DNA of 64,000 bases from contig NZ_LHZU01000146.1 in NCBI RefSeq assembly GCF_001580995.1, forward strand, positions 62,001-126,000, given 5' to 3'. The notes beneath the pieces were generated by a model. That model ran no database searches, was not told where the DNA came from, and was given only the letters and a program-made list of their open reading frames with translations. Positions 30,795 through 39,566 of this stretch are shown here, piece by piece. The DNA is from Acetobacter senegalensis. GTDB lineage: Bacteria; Pseudomonadota; Alphaproteobacteria; Acetobacterales; Acetobacteraceae. Numbering within the stretch: the stretch's first letter is position 1; every line of letters starts with the position of its first letter. Position numbers and translations under genes: made by a program.

Positions 30795-31808
30795 TCAGTG
30801 TTCTTCAATATCGTGAAAACGGGTGTAATCCACGGCAATTCTTCCATCGGGCCGGGATGCCACAATATCCACAAACCGATGATTATGGCGCACCCGATCA
30901 AACCGGTAAGCGGTCCGGGCAAAAACAGTCTGCCCCAACGCTTCATCTGTCCCGGTGACTGTCACCATGATTTCGGCTTCTTCATGCTCAAGCTCGGCAA
31001 CTGTTTTGCCATGCAAGGGGCTATCCGGCCCAATGACATGCGCCATCACAAAGGCAAAACGTAAAACGGGCACATGGGACTGCACCAGCAGAAGCTGATC
31101 AAACCGGCGCACCAGATGGCCATTTTCACTCACAACAAGGCGCGAGAGCGCAACCTCGACATCAACAGATAAAATCACGCTGATCCGCAGGTTGGCAATC
31201 CGGATGCACAGGGCCGGAACGCCGTTCTCGTTACTGATAACCGCCGTGTTGCTGAACATGATCCGTGCGCGCGGCCGAGCAAAACGGGCAAACACAACCC
31301 CCGTTGCCAGCGCGTTGATCATCATACCCACCAGCACTTCAAACGAAACAACCGTATTGGCATACAGACCAATCGGGGCCATGCCCCCATACCCCACGGT
31401 GGACAACGTCTGCACGCTAAAGAAAAACAAAGAAAGCAGGGTATGCTGTCCGTCCCCTGTCACCTGATCTGGCGCAAACCAGTATAGAACGGCAAAAAAC
31501 AGATTGATCAGGAAATAGGAAATAACGGCCGTATAAGCAAAAGCAGGCCAGCTTGCGGTAAGCGCGTGATGGTAAAGGTCTGTCCAGACACTATCGCGCA
31601 GCCCCACCCGCACCACATCGCGGTGACTTTTTTCTTCAACCAAAGCATGAGCACGGAAGCGGCGTACTGCCTCGTTGGTTGTGAAATGAATTTTCTTCTC
31701 ACCATTCCGCGCACCTGCCCCGGTGGGGGGAAGTTCATCCAGTTTGGTGTAACGATCTCGCTGCTTTGCCTCACGTTTTTCTTTCAACCGCTGCCATAAG
31801 CTTTTCAT
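30795..31808 (-). CDS. inward-rectifier potassium channel (KirBac-like)
   Basis: 337 residues, the size and layout of bacterial Kir channels: cytoplasmic N-terminus with slide helix (DLYHHALTASWP, 77-88), outer helix (about 90-112), pore helix and selectivity filter TVGYG (137-141), inner helix (about 150-172, MMINALATG) and a large cytoplasmic immunoglobulin-like domain (about 180-330). It conducts K+ across the inner membrane, gated by lipids, pH or ligands. Divergent from guaD with 173 bp between the starts. Confidence 0.93.
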   Translation of the reverse strand: MKSLWQRLKEKREAKQRDRYTKLDELPPTGAGARNGEKKIHFTTNEAVRRFRAHALVEEKSHRDVVRVGLRDSVWTDLYHHALTASWPAFAYTAVISYFLINLFFAVLYWFAPDQVTGDGQHTLLSLFFFSVQTLSTVGYGGMAPIGLYANTVVSFEVLVGMMINALATGVVFARFARPRARIMFSNTAVISNENGVPALCIRIANLRISVILSVDVEVALSRLVVSENGHLVRRFDQLLLVQSHVPVLRFAFVMAHVIGPDSPLHGKTVAELEHEEAEIMVTVTGTDEALGQTVFARTAYRFDRVRHNHRFVDIVASRPDGRIAVDYTRFHDIEEH

Positions 31809-31981
31809 GTCCGCTCTTCCTGTGCCAGAGCCGCCATGTTCTCGCCATGGCTACGCGCTCGCACGGTGATACACCCGCAGCTTTTGCGGCGCTCCGGCCA
31901 TTTACGCATGGAACCGTTGCGAAAACCCGCGTAACAAGGGCGAGATCACACCTTGCCATTCTTGATATCTCAGGAGCCTGT

Positions 31982-33316
31982 ATGCCTGCCTCTTCCCGTC
32001 ATGCCGCGTTGCGCGGGTGCGTTGTCACGTTTCGCGCCAACCCTTTCCTGACAGCGCCGGAAGACGCGCTTCATGTGGAAGAAGACGGCCTGATCCTGAT
32101 CACGGATGGCAAGATCACGCATTCTGGGCCTTATACGCAGACACGCGCTTTCCTGCCGGAAGGCGTTTCCGTTACGCATTACCCCAACAAATTGATCAGT
32201 GCCGGGTTTATTGACAGCCACGTTCATTATCCCCAACTGCCCGTTATCGCATCCTGGGGGGAAGAACTGCTGGCCTGGCTGCAACAGTATGTTTTCCCGG
32301 CAGAGGCCAAGTTTTCAGACAAGGATGTGGCACAGGCTGTTGCCAAATCCTTCCTGACAGAACTGCTGCGCAACGGCACAACCACCGCCGCTGTGTATTG
32401 CACGGTGCATCCAGAATCTGTTGACGCATTCTTTGAAGAATCTGCGCGGATTGGCACGCGTATGATTGCAGGCAAAGTGCTGATGGACCGCAATGCGCCC
32501 GATACCCTGCGTGATACAGCCCGCACCGGGTATGAGCAGTCCCGTAGCCTGATTGAGCGCTGGCATGGCAAAGGGCGGCAGCTTTACGCCGTAACACCCC
32601 GTTTTGCCATTACCAGCACGCCTGAACAGCTTGAACTGGCCGGAGACCTCTACCGCAGTCAGGATGATCTGTTCATGCAGACCCATCTTTCCGAAAACAG
32701 GGAAGAGATCGCCACCGTTGCGCGCCTCTTCCCCAACAGCGCCTCCTATCTGGATGTTTATGACAAAGCCGGACTGGTTGGCCCGCGCGCCATCTTCGGC
32801 CACGGCATTCATCTGCATGAGCATGATTTCCAGCACTGCCATGATACAGGATGCGCACTGGCCCATTGCCCGACATCCAACTTCTTTCTGGGGAGTGGCC
32901 TGTTCCGACTGTTCGACGCAAAAGCCACCAACCGCCCTGTGCATGTCGGGTTGGGAACAGACGTAGGCGCAGGCACCAGCCTCTCCCTTCTGGCCACCAT
33001 GGGGGAAGCCTACAAGGTCTCTCTCATGGCCTCGCCTCAACGGCTCCACGCCATTCAGGCCTTCTGGCTGGCCACCAGAGGAGGAGCAGAAGCCCTGCAT
33101 CTTGAAGACCGGATTGGCACCATTGCCCCCGGTATGGAGGCTGACCTATGTGTGCTTGACCCACAGGCCACACCGCTGCTGGCTCTCCGCACGCGTGAAA
33201 GCAAGACTGTCGCGGATATGCTGTTTGTCTTGATGACACTGGGAGACGACCGCTGTGTGGATGCCACATGGGTGAATGGCCAGTGCGTGCATCAACGTCC
33301 TTCATCAGAGGCATAA
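31982..33316 (+). CDS. guaD: guanine deaminase
   Basis: 444 residues, a zinc amidohydrolase that converts guanine to xanthine and ammonia in purine salvage and catabolism. The start at 31982 has AGGAG just upstream; the open frame to 31766 crosses the promoter region. Motifs: FIDSHVHYPQ (zinc ligands His80, His82), CTVHPESVD, QTHLSEN (His ligand), FGHGIHL (His) and GLGTDVGAG (catalytic Asp), plus CPTSNFFLGSGLF, typical of GuaD rather than other cytosine/guanine deaminases. No purine catabolic neighbours in the window. Confidence 0.94.
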   Translation: MPASSRHAALRGCVVTFRANPFLTAPEDALHVEEDGLILITDGKITHSGPYTQTRAFLPEGVSVTHYPNKLISAGFIDSHVHYPQLPVIASWGEELLAWLQQYVFPAEAKFSDKDVAQAVAKSFLTELLRNGTTTAAVYCTVHPESVDAFFEESARIGTRMIAGKVLMDRNAPDTLRDTARTGYEQSRSLIERWHGKGRQLYAVTPRFAITSTPEQLELAGDLYRSQDDLFMQTHLSENREEIATVARLFPNSASYLDVYDKAGLVGPRAIFGHGIHLHEHDFQHCHDTGCALAHCPTSNFFLGSGLFRLFDAKATNRPVHVGLGTDVGAGTSLSLLATMGEAYKVSLMASPQRLHAIQAFWLATRGGAEALHLEDRIGTIAPGMEADLCVLDPQATPLLALRTRESKTVADMLFVLMTLGDDRCVDATWVNGQCVHQRPSSEA

Positions 33317-33762: not shown

Positions 33763-34689
33763 CTACTTGGTGTCAGTCTCAAACGGATGCAAGGAAATAC
33801 CACCAGCCAGACGCGCCCATTGTTCCGCATCAGTTTCTGCCGTGCGGGTGCCGCCTTTGGCCAGAGCACCATGCGCCACCGTGGTGGCATCCACTTTTCC
33901 AGCCGCGTTTGCCTGAATGGCCGCACTCTGTGCCGCACGAGCCCAGAGCGTCGCCGCTTTCTGATGATCTCCGGCGCGATCTGTTGCCGTTGCGGCCAGT
34001 GCCAACGCGCGCGACATATCCCGATAAGAGGCATCGTCCCGCCGCAAGTCAGCAGCATTCTGCGCAAGTTGTGCTGCCTGTGTGGGGTCAGACGCCAGAA
34101 GAACCCGCGCCGCAATCTCGGCCTTGTCCGCCTGCATGGAGCGCGAAAGCGGTGGCTTCATGCCTTGCAGATACACGTTCGCCTTCTGAAGGGCTGCACT
34201 ATCTCCCCCTTCCGAAGCCGAGAGGCCAGCCACAAAGGCCGCCCGACTGGCGAGCGCTGTCTCTGACGCGCCCATAGCCTGCTCCGCCAGCGCAACAGAT
34301 TGCGGATACTGCTTCAGCCGATAATCAGCCGCAGCCTCCACCAGATCAAACGCGGCGTGCATCCCCTCACCGCGAACACGTGCAGCCTGCCGCGCGGCCT
34401 GTACCGTGCGCACCGCATCCGCTGGCAGGTCAGCCGCAAGCTGGGCAACTGCCAGATTGTAGCCTGCCTCGGCCGCTGCTTTTCCATCATCGCGCATCAG
34501 GGCCAGATCAGCCGCTTTCCGATACTGGGTAATGGCAACGCTATAGCGGCCCAGATCAAAGGAATCCTGCCCCGCTGTCATGGCCTGATCCCACTGGGCA
34601 TCGTCTCGAGCAGAGGGCGCTTCCTTGGTGCCGCCGCAACCCGAAAGAAGCAGCGGGCCAAGCAGCATCACGGCATGCAGGCGCTTCAT
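33763..34689 (-). CDS. TPR-like lipoprotein of the MCE operon
   Basis: 308 residues from ATG 34689, which overlaps the mlaD-like stop by ATGA. The signal ends in LLLSGC (Cys18), a good lipobox, so the protein is anchored in the envelope. The mature part is almost wholly alpha-helical and Ala-rich, with TPR-like pairs (for example GQDSFDLGRYSVAITQYRKA, then EAGYNLAVAQL, YRLKQYPQSVALAEQA). In Mla-type systems an outer-membrane or periplasmic partner completes the route; this lipoprotein could be that part (inference). Last gene of the operon. Confidence 0.75.
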   Translation of the reverse strand: MKRLHAVMLLGPLLLSGCGGTKEAPSARDDAQWDQAMTAGQDSFDLGRYSVAITQYRKAADLALMRDDGKAAAEAGYNLAVAQLAADLPADAVRTVQAARQAARVRGEGMHAAFDLVEAAADYRLKQYPQSVALAEQAMGASETALASRAAFVAGLSASEGGDSAALQKANVYLQGMKPPLSRSMQADKAEIAARVLLASDPTQAAQLAQNAADLRRDDASYRDMSRALALAATATDRAGDHQKAATLWARAAQSAAIQANAAGKVDATTVAHGALAKGGTRTAETDAEQWARLAGGISLHPFETDTK

Positions 34690-35636
34690 GGCCGCACCTG
34701 CCGCGGTGCGAGGCGCGTCTTTTTCTGAACCTTCGAGCCACCCAGCAGCCACATGCCGCGTAACTGGTCAGTCAGCTTTTCAAGCCCATACAGAGTGGTT
34801 TGCGCCTGCGCCAGCAGAACGGGCAGATCTGCCGTGCTGGCCTCCACATTGCCCGCAATGGCCGGCAGATGCGGCGTGGCGCCTTTCAGATCCTGCGATG
34901 CCGAGCGCAGATTGCCCATAGTGGCATCCGTCTTGTTCATCACACCCGAAATCTGTTTTTCAATGGGTTTCAGCCGGTCAATAACCGTGTTGAGCGAAAC
35001 CGCAGCCGCCTGCGCCTGACGGATCAGTTCATCATTGGTCATCAACTGCCCGACGGTGCCTTTGCCCGCATGCATGTCTGTAATGGTGGCATCAAGCTGC
35101 GCCATCATGTGGCGGGCGCTGGCAATGGCAGGCATGATCTGGGCCTGAATATCGTTCAGGGTGGCGGTAATCATATCTGCCGGGTTGGGGGCTGGAGTGG
35201 CGCTGATCACAGCGTAACTCCAGTCCATGGGGTCCCCATGCCCTTTGTTCAGTTCCAGATAGGCGGCCCCTGTCACAATAAACTGCTTGCGGATCACCGC
35301 CGTGCTATCGCGCCGAATGAACGGTTTGGCCTGAGGGTCCAGATCAACAATGGCATACATGTCGCCCGAAGGGTTCAGCTTGACGGAACGGATCGTGCCC
35401 GCATGTGCGCCCAGAAGCTGCACATCGCCCCCCACTGTCAGGCCCCCCACCCCGCCTGCTGGCAATGTCACCCGCAAGGTGGCGGGCGGCGTCAGCCAGT
35501 CTCGCAACACGCCTGCCTCCACCACGGCACCGGCAAACAGCACCACGCTGAGAAGCACAAGGAAGCCCACCCACTCATCCGCATAGCGGAGAGAGATCAG
35601 CGGTTTTACTTTCTGTCGTAAGCGGATCTGGAACAT
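34686..35636 (-). CDS. MCE-domain substrate-binding protein (MlaD-like)
   Basis: 316 residues: cytoplasmic N-terminus, one helix (about 23-45), an MCE domain (about 53-135; LPAGGVGGLTVGGDVQLLGAHAG then GAAYLELNKG), and a long helical tail (about 155-300) that should form coiled-coil. MCE proteins form hexameric rings that bind lipid in the periplasm. It starts by TAATG overlap with the ABC-like gene and ends by ATGA overlap with the lipoprotein gene, so all are translated together. Confidence 0.88.
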   Translation of the reverse strand: MFQIRLRQKVKPLISLRYADEWVGFLVLLSVVLFAGAVVEAGVLRDWLTPPATLRVTLPAGGVGGLTVGGDVQLLGAHAGTIRSVKLNPSGDMYAIVDLDPQAKPFIRRDSTAVIRKQFIVTGAAYLELNKGHGDPMDWSYAVISATPAPNPADMITATLNDIQAQIMPAIASARHMMAQLDATITDMHAGKGTVGQLMTNDELIRQAQAAAVSLNTVIDRLKPIEKQISGVMNKTDATMGNLRSASQDLKGATPHLPAIAGNVEASTADLPVLLAQAQTTLYGLEKLTDQLRGMWLLGGSKVQKKTRLAPRQVRP

Positions 35637-36337
35637 TACCCCGTCCGTACTGCTACAAGCCCGTCATCGGCAAGACGCCACATACTGGTTACACCCTGCC
35701 GGTAGCCCTGCCATATGGCATTATTGCGTACCAGCCAGATCACACCTGCCCCCTTATCCCGCGCATCTGTCAACGCGCTGAGAAACGCATTTTCCAGTTC
35801 CACGGGACTTGCTTCCAGCGGGTCTTCCAGAAGCAGTAAACGGGGGCGTCCCATAAAAGCCCTAACACATTCCGCCCGCACCAGATCCGCCGGAGACAGC
35901 AGGGCTGGCCGGAGCACCGGCAGGCCCGGCAGGCCAAACTGTTCGCTCAGGCGGGTTGCCTCGGCCACTACATCATCCATCGGGCGGTTGGTATGATGCA
36001 ACTGCTGCAACGTGATGGCCAGATGCGTGCCCAGAAACGTGGGCCAGCTTGGCCTGCGCGTAATGCGGCCAATACGCCCACGCAGGGCATTGACCTCCCT
36101 GTCATGCAGTTCTGCCCAATCCAGCCCCATGAATTTCACGCTGCCATCATCAAGCGGCACAAGCCCGGAACACATATCTGCAAACTGGATTGCATTTTCC
36201 GGGTCTCGTGCTTCAACCACCACGCATTCCCCCGGCATCAGCCGCATGCTGAACGGCACGGGCGGAAGGCCGCTTTCATCAAAGGAAGGAACTGCCTTGT
36301 TCAGTTCCAGCAGGGGGCCAACGGTGCGTGTCTCCAT
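35636..36337 (-). CDS. degenerate ABC ATPase-like protein (MlaF-like pseudo-ATPase)
   Basis: 233 residues in the MlaF position and of MlaF-like fold, but its catalytic motifs are gone. Aligned by eye with E. coli MlaF, the P-loop MGPSGIGKTT corresponds to residues 42-51 here (EARDPENAIQ), so the Walker A Lys is Ala49. The Q-loop Gln is Arg94, the LSGGM signature is LSPAD (147-151), Walker B DEP is EDP (171-173) and the switch His is Arg204. The surrounding beta strands and helices are kept, and the frame is intact and coupled to its neighbours, so this is not ordinary decay. It may be a structural or regulatory subunit, or dimerise with an ATPase encoded elsewhere. Confidence 0.8.
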   Translation of the reverse strand: METRTVGPLLELNKAVPSFDESGLPPVPFSMRLMPGECVVVEARDPENAIQFADMCSGLVPLDDGSVKFMGLDWAELHDREVNALRGRIGRITRRPSWPTFLGTHLAITLQQLHHTNRPMDDVVAEATRLSEQFGLPGLPVLRPALLSPADLVRAECVRAFMGRPRLLLLEDPLEASPVELENAFLSALTDARDKGAGVIWLVRNNAIWQGYRQGVTSMWRLADDGLVAVRTG

Positions 36338-36339
36338 CT

Positions 36340-37233
36340 TTACAGATCCAGACTGAACAGAACGCTGACAGCCATCACAATCAGCATCCCGCGGGAGAAA
36401 CCACGCGGCAGAAGCGTGCGCAGATTGTCCTCATTGGTAGCGGTCAGGCCTGTCAGACAGCCCCCCAGCCCCACCACAAACCCGACCGTGATGAATTTGA
36501 GCGGAATGACCAGATAATCCGTGGAGGACATAGCCACCACCACATCATAAAAGAACGTCCAGACCGGATTGGTGATCACCCCGGAAATACGGCTGATGAT
36601 GTAACCGGTCAGCAGCGCTGCGAACGAGAACAGAATGCCCAGCGTAAAGCCACCAACCGTAAATGCCAGTGTGCGCGGCATGACCAGCAGCAGGAACGGG
36701 TCCAGCCCCTGCGCCTGCATGGACCGGATCTGGCCGCCGGTTGTCAGCAGCCCCAACTCCGTCACGGACAACATGCCGTTACGGCCCAACAGAAGAATAC
36801 CCACCAGAATGGGGGCAATTTCGCGAATGACCACGTTGACAAGAATGGAGCCTGTCATTTTGGCAAGGCCCGCAAGCCCCAGCCAGTATATGGTCTGGGA
36901 AACAGCCGCCACACCCGTAAGTGTGCCCGCAAACAGGGTGGCAATCAGACCGCCGCCGATTACGCTGTTCAGCGTTACACCAAACTCGTAGCAGACGGTT
37001 CTGCGCCATGAGTGAGAGCGGAAGCTTTCATAAATAACGCCCCATGATGCCCCGAGCATGATGAGGAAAAAGCGTGCCTGATGCCGGGTGATGTGCCCAA
37101 GCCACGCCAGTTTTTCCCTGATCCATTCGTGCAGCACAAAAGGTCTGCGCTGACGGTGCGGGGTGGCATCCCCTTCCAGAATGGGGTCCCGGTCTCCTCC
37201 GCCTTCGCGTGGGGCAATGTTATCCTCGCTCAT
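36340..37233 (-). CDS. MlaE-like ABC transporter permease
   Basis: 297 residues: a long polar N-terminus (about 1-50), an amphipathic segment and about five membrane helices. MlaE family features: VIREIAPILVGILLLGRNG, then VTELGLLTTGGQIRSMQAQGLDP, then PRTLAF. The usual T-E-Q of the coupling region is T-G-G here. Its start overlaps the cyclase-like gene (ATGA 37230-37233) and its stop is 2 bp before the ABC-like gene. It would be the membrane core of the lipid transporter. Confidence 0.88.
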   Translation of the reverse strand: MSEDNIAPREGGGDRDPILEGDATPHRQRRPFVLHEWIREKLAWLGHITRHQARFFLIMLGASWGVIYESFRSHSWRRTVCYEFGVTLNSVIGGGLIATLFAGTLTGVAAVSQTIYWLGLAGLAKMTGSILVNVVIREIAPILVGILLLGRNGMLSVTELGLLTTGGQIRSMQAQGLDPFLLLVMPRTLAFTVGGFTLGILFSFAALLTGYIISRISGVITNPVWTFFYDVVVAMSSTDYLVIPLKFITVGFVVGLGGCLTGLTATNEDNLRTLLPRGFSRGMLIVMAVSVLFSLDL

Positions 37234-39566
37234 CGGCGGGCTGCCAGAACATAGGCCTGCCCCAGACCAAGATGAGGGGCGAAGAATGTTCCGCGGCTTC
37301 GGAACAGGTAACGGTCACGCAAAGCCGCATAAACACGCTCGGTTACCTGAATAGTGCCCGCATCCGACGCACCCTGCGCCATGAGTTCGGCCAGAGAAAC
37401 CGTCTGCCCCCACAGGTTGAACACTTGCGGGTCTGCACCAACCGGCCCACCAAAGGCGGCCCCGTAGTCCAGCCCCATGGTGAACACGGGCTCCAGATCT
37501 GCTGCAGCAAGGGCTGCCATCAGCGTTTCACGCATGGTCAGCGCGGCATCAGCCATCCGGATAATAGCCGTAGCGTCTTCCTCGGTTGAGCAGCCCGCCA
37601 TGCAAATCAGGCGGTGCCCGGCCACTTCCACCGCGAACAGTTTTCTGTCCTGCGCAATGCGCTGCACATCGGAAGCAAGCTGATTGATGAGCGCCAGCAG
37701 AGCCTGCGTTTCTGATTCTCCGTCCACCACGGGATCAGAGAACGTGATGACCAGAACAGCCACGGCAGGATAGATGCCGGATGTTGTAACCGCAGCCACT
37801 TCCGGCGCACGCATCAGCATGTTGTCAAACTGCGTGGTCGGCAGAGAGGATGCCTGTTGCACGGCCTGAGTGCTGTGGTCCGCTCCGGCCTCGTTCGGAT
37901 GATCAATTTCCGGCGTATTCTGCGCTGCCGCAGCCAACCGCATGCCGGCAATAGCCGCAATGAGATCGACAAAATACACCAGATGCGGGGCCATGTTCGC
38001 ATCTTCCAGCACCACGGCCCCCGCTACGCCCCCGGCTTCATGAATGGGGTAGACGGAGAGCATGCGGGTTCCGGCCTCACGCATGACCAGCCGTTCAAAT
38101 TGCGTGGTGCGTTCGTCAACCGCTGCATCTGCAACCGTAAAGGGCTCGCCTTCTTCCACCGCCTTGAAAAACGCATCCAGTTCAGTCCGCGACATTTCAA
38201 ACCCGCCAGAATGGGCATCCTGCTTTTCATCATACGAATCATTGCAGACCATGGCGGACCCATCATGCAGGAAGCGCCAGATACTCGCGCGACGGGCGTG
38301 GGTAACGTAGGCCAACTGCTCTGTCAGCACGAGGGAATCATTGGTCGGGTCAAACAGGCGCGGCGTGGACGCCACCTGCTGCACGGCACCTGTCTCATGC
38401 GTCACCTGAGCTTTCTGGCGAGCAAGAAGACGTGCGTTCCGTTCAGACCGCCTGACCTGACGGATCAGCAACCCGGCCAAGATCAGGGAAAACGTAATAA
38501 TCACGCCCGCAAACTGGAGACTTTGCTGGCTGCTCTGTTTGGCAAAGCTGGCAAAATCACTTTCCGGCGCGGACAGCAATAGAATCCAGCCTTCAGAAGA
38601 CCCCGGCAGCGGCGAGGCAATGGTCACATAGCGTTTCTTGTTCAGGGTAAAGGTCCGGGGGCCAAATCCACGCACCCGGTAATGATCATACCCACGGGCA
38701 AACACGGGGTGCGTTTTGGGGTCCAGCACCATCTTGTTGGGGTCCCACCCGGCCGCTTCGGCAAGCTGCATCAGGTTTCGGCCGGCCATGACACGGCCCT
38801 TGCTATCAAGCACAATGGCGTTGCCGCTTTTCCCCACCTTGATGTTGTCAAGAAACGCGCTGAGTTCGTTCAACGAGATATTGGTCGCAAAAACCAGTGT
38901 GTGCCCATCCTGCCCCTTGAACCGCAGGGAACTGGTCATGACAAACTGCTTATCTGTGGGGAACAGATAAGGCTGCGTCCATTTTATCTGGTTGGTGCCA
39001 TTTGTGTTCTGGTACCAGGCCCGTTTGCGCGGATCATAATCCTTGGCATCATCATCAGCTTCACCCGTCTTGGTGCCATCAATGGTGTAATAGTCATGAT
39101 GGAAAACCTGATGCCCATCCTTCACCTGCAAGGTGGTGCGTTCCTGCTCCTTCCCATCCTTGCCGTGGCGGGTAATCAGGGTGAAGCGCCCGCTATCATC
39201 TGCCAGGTAAAAGGACTGAAGCTGCGGCACGCTGCGCAACATGGCCCCACCATAGGAATAGAACACCTTGTCCTGCACTGCGGGCGGCACGTGTTCGATC
39301 ATGCCGCTGGCAATCACATTCCCAGCCGAGGCCGGCATGATGTAATCGGATACTTCCTGCGCAATATAATGCTGCACTGCTCCCAGCAGGTCATGCGTGA
39401 GAGATTCCACGCCCGCCCGCGTGGTACGATAGGAATGCAGGCCGATTACGATAACGGCCACAATACCCAGAACAAGCGCCAGCAAAGGCAGGACCAGATG
39501 CAGCAGCACACGCCGCACGGACACATCGTGCTGGAGAGTTGGATCGACTATCTCATCAGAAGACAC
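37230..39566 (-). CDS. membrane sensor with dCACHE, GAF and degenerate class III cyclase domain
   Basis: 778 residues: helix (about 19-42), periplasmic double-CACHE sensor (about 45-340; YDPRKRAWYQ at 177-186 is the CACHE motif), second helix (about 351-368), a GAF domain (about 405-545) and a C-terminal adenylate/guanylate cyclase homology domain (about 595-778). The cyclase frame is clear (FNLWGQTVSLAE, then GTIQVTERVYAALRDRYLFRSRG) but the first metal Asp is Thr608, the second is His651 (AGH for GD), the base-specifying Asp is Asn717, the Asn is Ser724 and the Arg is Leu728. It should not make cAMP or cGMP. First gene of the MCE operon, coupled to the permease. Confidence 0.85.
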   Translation of the reverse strand: MSSDEIVDPTLQHDVSVRRVLLHLVLPLLALVLGIVAVIVIGLHSYRTTRAGVESLTHDLLGAVQHYIAQEVSDYIMPASAGNVIASGMIEHVPPAVQDKVFYSYGGAMLRSVPQLQSFYLADDSGRFTLITRHGKDGKEQERTTLQVKDGHQVFHHDYYTIDGTKTGEADDDAKDYDPRKRAWYQNTNGTNQIKWTQPYLFPTDKQFVMTSSLRFKGQDGHTLVFATNISLNELSAFLDNIKVGKSGNAIVLDSKGRVMAGRNLMQLAEAAGWDPNKMVLDPKTHPVFARGYDHYRVRGFGPRTFTLNKKRYVTIASPLPGSSEGWILLLSAPESDFASFAKQSSQQSLQFAGVIITFSLILAGLLIRQVRRSERNARLLARQKAQVTHETGAVQQVASTPRLFDPTNDSLVLTEQLAYVTHARRASIWRFLHDGSAMVCNDSYDEKQDAHSGGFEMSRTELDAFFKAVEEGEPFTVADAAVDERTTQFERLVMREAGTRMLSVYPIHEAGGVAGAVVLEDANMAPHLVYFVDLIAAIAGMRLAAAAQNTPEIDHPNEAGADHSTQAVQQASSLPTTQFDNMLMRAPEVAAVTTSGIYPAVAVLVITFSDPVVDGESETQALLALINQLASDVQRIAQDRKLFAVEVAGHRLICMAGCSTEEDATAIIRMADAALTMRETLMAALAAADLEPVFTMGLDYGAAFGGPVGADPQVFNLWGQTVSLAELMAQGASDAGTIQVTERVYAALRDRYLFRSRGTFFAPHLGLGQAYVLAARR

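Follow-up and report, generated by a model that had tools for sequence, protein, structure and literature searches.

The window, a 64,000-nucleotide stretch of the Acetobacter senegalensis genome (contig NZ_LHZU01000146.1, positions 62,001 to 126,000), carries on its minus strand five closely coupled genes for an Mla-like system whose MlaF-like ATP-binding cassette (ABC) subunit has lost its ATP motifs. Beginning with the first gene of the operon, they encode a sensor (SEN), an MlaE-family permease (PERM), the MlaF-like subunit (ABC), an MCE-domain protein (MCE) and a lipoprotein (LIP) (Table 1). SEN and PERM overlap in an ATGA at 37230-37233, a 2-bp gap (36338-36339) separates PERM from ABC, ABC and MCE meet in a TAATG at 35636, and a second ATGA overlap (34686-34689) joins MCE to LIP. 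The five open reading frames and all four junctions lie where an earlier note, made from the sequence alone, had placed them. The roles that it assigned were also supported, with Pfam matches over the cutoff for the sensor domains, MlaE and MlaD and a match below it for ABC_tran in the ABC subunit (15 bits against a cutoff of 25). NCBIfam gave solely below-cutoff matches for the five proteins, and none of them had a Pfam match to STAS, the domain of the MlaB regulator.

TABLE 1 Features of the five-gene operon, in window positions
Feature	Positions	Strand	Basis
Sensor (SEN), 778 amino acids (aa), membrane-anchored dCache-GAF-class III cyclase-like	37230..39566	minus	Open reading frame, Pfam, profile
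Periplasmic dCache domain, SEN aa 110-330	38577..39239	minus	Pfam, profile
Pseudo-cyclase domain, SEN aa 618-761 (Pfam match), catalytic residues lost	37284..37715	minus	Pfam, alignment
MlaE-family permease (PERM), 297 aa	36340..37233	minus	Pfam, PDB match
Predicted coupling helix, PERM aa 162-178	36700..36750	minus	Alignment to MlaE
MlaF-like pseudo-ATPase (ABC), 233 aa, full nucleotide-binding domain fold, ATP motifs lost	35636..36337	minus	Profile, model
Place of lost Walker A motif, ABC aa 43-50	36188..36211	minus	Profile alignment, model
MCE/MlaD-domain protein (MCE), 316 aa	34686..35636	minus	Open reading frame, Pfam
Lipoprotein (LIP), 308 aa, TPR-like superhelix	33763..34689	minus	Open reading frame, lipobox, fold

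A profile alignment with 21 canonical MlaF proteins served to locate the motif positions of the ABC subunit. The canonical P-loop residues G45-K46-S47 correspond to N48-A49-I50 in the window protein, arginines occupy the places of the Q-loop Gln (R94) and the H-loop His (R204), and ED stands at the place of the Walker B DE. The predicted structure has a complete nucleotide-binding domain (NBD) fold, and at the place of the P-loop this confident model leaves only two residues between a strand (residues 38 to 43) and a helix that begins at residue 46. We then counted the motifs across 86 loci, comprising the window, 75 Acetobacteraceae loci from a search with the ABC protein, 2 further Acetobacteraceae loci and 8 from two other families. 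Not one of the 86 ABC subunits had a complete set of ATP motifs: the Walker A Lys was missing at all 85 covered sites and the Walker B Asp-Glu pair in all 86 proteins, while the LSGG signature was found in one. A control set of canonical MlaF proteins had Walker A in 31 of 31 and LSGG in 26 of 31. The loss of ABC catalytic residues from an intact frame, first noticed in the window, is thus real, and the dead-MlaF reading survived the comparison with relatives. In E. coli, the MlaF substitutions K47A (Walker A) and E170Q (Walker B) are reported not to complement, their function being abolished (PMC7367683); a family with a pseudo-ATPase must therefore differ in its drive.

The permease matched MlaE (PF02405) at 107 bits, against a cutoff of 22.5, and the PDB chain 7ch8_G with an E value of 2.2e-20. 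The coupling helix of MlaE is described as joining transmembrane helices 2 and 3 and touching MlaF (PMC7790496, PMC7784689), and the ATPase MceG has been proposed to bind Mce permeases at an EExDA motif within a cytosolic loop (PMC9947336). Within the predicted coupling helix of the window permease, G-Q-I-R-S replaces the EExDA-type motif. Canonical MlaE proteins had the Asp of this motif in 32 of 32 cases and the Glu in 29 of 32. Among 83 family permeases (three broken ones were excluded), the Asp place was occupied by R in 60, K in 8, A in 7, D in 1 and other residues in 7, and the Glu place by G in 74, E in 1 and other residues in 8; the Glu and Asp occurred together in none. Since both the motor and its docking place are altered, simple use of an ordinary MlaF is disfavored, and the sequences speak against a permease that is simply served by one.

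The main rival explanation is nevertheless that a canonical MlaF from elsewhere powers the permease, either by itself or paired with the pseudo-NBD in a heterodimer, much as the mycobacterial Mce1 and Mce4 systems are described as sharing MceG (PMC9947336). The A. senegalensis genome (3.93 Mb, 148 contigs) does contain ordinary mla loci, as the earlier note had thought worth checking: besides the window's permease there are two MlaE permeases, each followed by a MlaF with intact motifs. A canonical MlaF profile scored these two MlaF-class ATPases at 405 and 288 bits and the next ABC protein at 202 bits. Both adjoin their own MlaE, and no third or unlinked MlaF/MceG-class ATPase was found in the genome. 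The operon, moreover, retains its own NBD-like subunit, and of the two sites in a heterodimer, one would presumably have an intact Walker A facing a degenerate signature, the other an intact signature with no Walker A opposite it. The lost docking motif and the lack of a third MlaF weaken the case for a borrowed motor, which seems unlikely to us. One locus of the same genome, L035, encodes an MlaE, MlaF, MlaD and a PF03886 (ABC_trans_aux) lipoprotein, the MlaE being fused to an N-terminal STAS-like part whose match (20.8 bits) lies below the cutoff of 29.2. Elsewhere, the genome encodes two proteins of the MlaC family and additional MCE domains. We also noted two very divergent MlaE-like matches, G361:C61:2506-3147 and G376:C3:361463-362071, in frames of 539 and 706 aa; their scores (44.5 and 38.5 bits) are far under those of the canonical set and of the operon family.

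The five genes lay in the same order on one strand at 83 of the 86 loci, so the proposed linkage was not refuted; the exceptions were L089, which reaches a contig end, L103 and L113. Low profile coverage of some gene affected eight loci, either at contig ends (L065, L089, L104, L106 and L107) or through broken frames (L049, L072 and L110). All five genes are damaged at L110, the sensor and permease frames are interrupted at L072, and the permease frame is interrupted at L049. About 1 kb separates the sensor from the permease at L082, and one other locus has a similar gap; at the remainder, at most 263 bases lie between domains.

A search of 249 Acetobacteraceae genomes with the ABC protein returned 76, its own included, at E values of 3.6e-24 or less, the next match being at 7.9e-11. 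By our count from the listing, these genomes span 35 of 102 genera. The protein was present in all sampled members of genera g1, g32, g40, g42, g54, g60, g73, g85, g100 and g101, and it is kept even in genomes of about 1.7 to 2.0 Mb. A separate search with the permease yielded 143 confirmed loci, of which 80, from named holders, were kept. The sensor gene was present at all 80, ABC and MCE at 79 and LIP at 78; the loci with misses (L115 and L169) both stop at a contig end. The holders among these 80 of 143 belong to Acetobacter, Gluconacetobacter, Komagataeibacter, Novacetimonas, Gluconobacter, Asaia, Swaminathania, Tanticharoenia and Ameyamaea. Of these named holders, Acetobacter tropicalis LMG 19825 matches the window best (93% in the permease). 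Profile matches occurred in 6 of 385 genomes of a class-wide sample, two of them outside the Acetobacteraceae, and in 3 of 39 and 5 of 17 genomes of the two families to which these belong. A phylum-wide sample gave matches in 6 of 398 genomes and no family beyond those three. In a FastTree phylogeny of concatenated permease, ABC and MCE proteins, L099 from the Acetobacteraceae paired with L111 from another family with a support of 1.0, which argues that the operon has probably also moved horizontally as a unit.

Recent decay or sequencing error might be invoked for the lost catalytic motifs, and the broken frames at L049, L072 and L110 show that damaged copies occur. The same losses are found in open frames in three families, and dN/dS (the ratio of nonsynonymous to synonymous substitution rates) is low in Acetobacter. 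The family-wide conservation of the losses and the low dN/dS refute this explanation for the window and leave it a negligible chance overall; by these sequence measures, the five-gene set is kept under purifying selection. Background synteny was likewise rejected as the cause of the linkage, as flanking neighbors are not common across clades. In a tblastn count of neighbors at 159 loci (two sets, of 79 and 80, that overlap in species), ppx was present at 30, ppk at 28 and guanine deaminase at 3. Seven of ten flanking genes from six loci matched Pfam families: two related loci had SulP, two had CAF17, and the other three families were each seen once. Neighbors were shared within clades and not across them, and the flanks scanned held no partner gene common to all clades. 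With the window proteins as queries, tblastn missed the lipoprotein at several loci where the profile search detected it. In the window, the neighbor at 31766-33316 is an amidohydrolase gene, which we take to encode a guanine deaminase, and beside it lies a gene for an inward-rectifier-type potassium channel (30795-31808; IRK_C, 83 bits).

The MCE protein matched MlaD (PF02470) at 44.7 bits (cutoff, 25.1). It has a single MCE domain (aa 54 to 132) followed by a long C-terminal part and is the most constrained of the five proteins, with a median dN/dS of 0.08. LIP matched no Pfam family over its cutoff, a TPR match falling below it. Its lipobox Cys, C18, is invariant in a 32-sequence alignment, and its model is an all-helical, TPR-like superhelix with a predicted local distance difference test score of 86.7. 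The top Foldseek matches were mostly TPR domains (best E value, 1.8e-4; TM-scores, 0.3 to 0.6). The predicted fold and the invariant Cys thus bear out the description of LIP as a TPR-like lipoprotein.

The sensor matched Guanylate_cyc (57 bits), GAF (31 bits) and MCP-like_PDC_1 (30 bits) over their Pfam cutoffs and dCache_1 just under its cutoff (44.3 bits against 45). Profile comparison matched it to chains of the PctA receptor (5ltx; E value, 1.3e-21) and to a bacterial-type class III adenylate cyclase (7yz9; E value, 6.6e-33). In the periplasmic domain, Y177, R182, W184, Y200 and N229 have the spacing (+5, +7, +23 and +52) of the PctA amino-acid motif, given as Y121, R126, W128, Y144 and D173 (PMC10104139), the final Asp being changed to Asn. 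Among 82 family sensors (two broken ones were excluded), this last residue was Asn in 52, Asp in 24 and Ser in 6. The first four motif residues were kept in 52 of the 82, and in these the last was Asn in 24, Asp in 23 and Ser in 5. Some family sensors thus look like amino-acid sensors, and the window protein has the Asn variant of the motif. In a purine receptor with the same fold, a D-to-N change is reported to have lowered affinity 80-fold (PMC11245519). A purine ligand for the window sensor, suggested by the guanine deaminase neighbor, was unsupported: the pocket has the amino-acid spacing and the neighbor is rarely present.

In the cyclase domain of the window sensor, the residue at the second metal place is H651, and those at the transition-state places are S724 and L728, which confirms at these places the earlier report of lost catalytic residues. 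Across the 82 sensors, Asp was found at 651 in 3, Asn at 724 in 4 and Arg at 728 in 5, with both transition-state residues together in none. The first metal Asp falls within a 3-residue deletion in the alignment to 7yz9, and an Asp at 611, near that place, was found in 47 of 82. L102, L105 and L252 have an Asp at or next to 611 as well as one at 651, and these few cyclase domains may still bind metal in part.

The linkage, the intact predicted NBD fold, the lost ATP, coupling and cyclase residues and the purifying selection are what sequence comparison and structural modeling establish. The anatomy and conservation of the operon are firm on this basis, and the five-gene set is probably driven or gated otherwise than by its own ATP hydrolysis. 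That sensor and motor have both lost catalysis points toward an envelope function gated by a ligand. We hold with about even confidence that the operon encodes a conserved envelope lipid-transfer complex of the Mla/MCE type, in which the complex's own motor has become a pseudo-ATPase. As its working mode we favor a gated, ATP-independent MCE lipid conduit. The pseudo-NBD pair would still cap the permease as a scaffold and serve as a structural coupler to the sensor. The pseudo-cyclase pair of the sensor, acting on the pseudo-NBD or the permease, would replace both the missing MlaB/STAS regulator and the ATP cycle. A small periplasmic ligand bound to the dCache domain might then open or close a passive lipid path formed by the permease, the MCE protein and the lipoprotein. 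That the ligand signal passes through dCache domain, pseudo-cyclase and pseudo-NBD to gate a conduit run by ligand binding and a lipid gradient is a tentative proposal, in which our belief falls short of our doubt. The sequence evidence fits the earlier note's idea of an unusually driven or gated "ligand-sensing lipid transport machine", whose transport, ligand and complex are putative.

Several observations weigh against this ATP-independent conduit. Among the 86 ABC subunits, the signature Ser is still present in 62. The Q-loop place holds Gln in 24, the catalytic-Glu place Glu in 11 and the H-loop place His in 2, and the residue at the Walker B Asp place is acidic in 84; with such single residues kept, there may be some residual nucleotide role. 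At L103 and L113, from one genus, the other four genes are present with no sensor alongside (at the locus itself; the rest of these genomes was not searched for one), so that the five genes do not always occur together and the sensor is not strictly obligatory. Co-evolution analysis (mutual information with average product correction; 159 sequences, effective number 68) was uninformative, inter-protein scores being as high as intra-protein ones. The docking of pseudo-NBD, permease and pseudo-cyclase in one complex is assumed, and lipid could flow passively only down a gradient, none being known here.

The retained Walker B acid and the high conservation of new, non-standard residues (R91 in 74, W98 in 73, D151 in 74 and R159 in 76 of 76 proteins) would suit an NBD-like subunit that binds, or is regulated by, a nucleotide or other phosphate ligand through these four residues. 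The two-residue P-loop remnant and the lack of the Walker A Lys at all 85 covered sites argue against such use, which we consider improbable. It is also conceivable, if distinctly unlikely, that the permease, pseudo-NBD and MCE parts sense the lipid state of the envelope and signal with the sensor by protein contacts, moving no bulk lipid. The leading position of the sensor gene and the pseudoenzyme nature of both enzyme-like parts, which leaves no output enzyme in the operon, agree with a signaling device. The strong constraint on the MCE protein, the two sensorless loci and the lack of a partner gene shared by all clades in the flanks scanned do not.

ATP-driven NBDs are what define an ABC transporter. 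Here many genera of acetic acid bacteria, and some relatives, have kept a fold-complete MlaF-like subunit with no recognizable ATP site and, alongside it, a permease that has lost the coupling motif. The family is a natural test case for roles of NBDs besides hydrolysis and for whether MlaE-type MCE systems work without their own ATPase. We found no account of the five-gene operon or of a conserved dead MlaF in the PMC literature, outside which most subscription journals lie, so an earlier description is possible.

Compared with MlaFEDB of E. coli and P. aeruginosa, the operon differs in its lost ATPase motifs and coupling motif; it has no STAS protein and adds a sensor and a TPR-like lipoprotein. 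The L035 locus has the same order of permease, ABC, MCE and lipoprotein genes, but with an intact MlaF, a STAS-like part on MlaE and a PF03886 rather than a TPR-like lipoprotein. PqiABC and LetAB are MCE systems without an ABC ATPase whose inner-membrane partner is PqiA or LetA, not MlaE, and none of the five operon proteins matched a PqiA/LetA-type family in Pfam. The sensor matches dCache_1AA receptors such as PctA by profile, but 52 of the 82 sensors have Asn in place of the final Asp of the motif; the sensor likewise matches the class III adenylate cyclase 7yz9, but without its catalytic residues. Mce1 and Mce4 are also MCE transporters whose loci supply no working ATPase, but their shared MceG is described as intact and their permeases as keeping the EExDA loop (PMC9947336), unlike the operon here. 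The parts list of the operon is like that of an Mla transporter, but the ATPase and coupling features that define one are lost, and on present sequence evidence the operon should be filed as a pseudo-ATPase variant.
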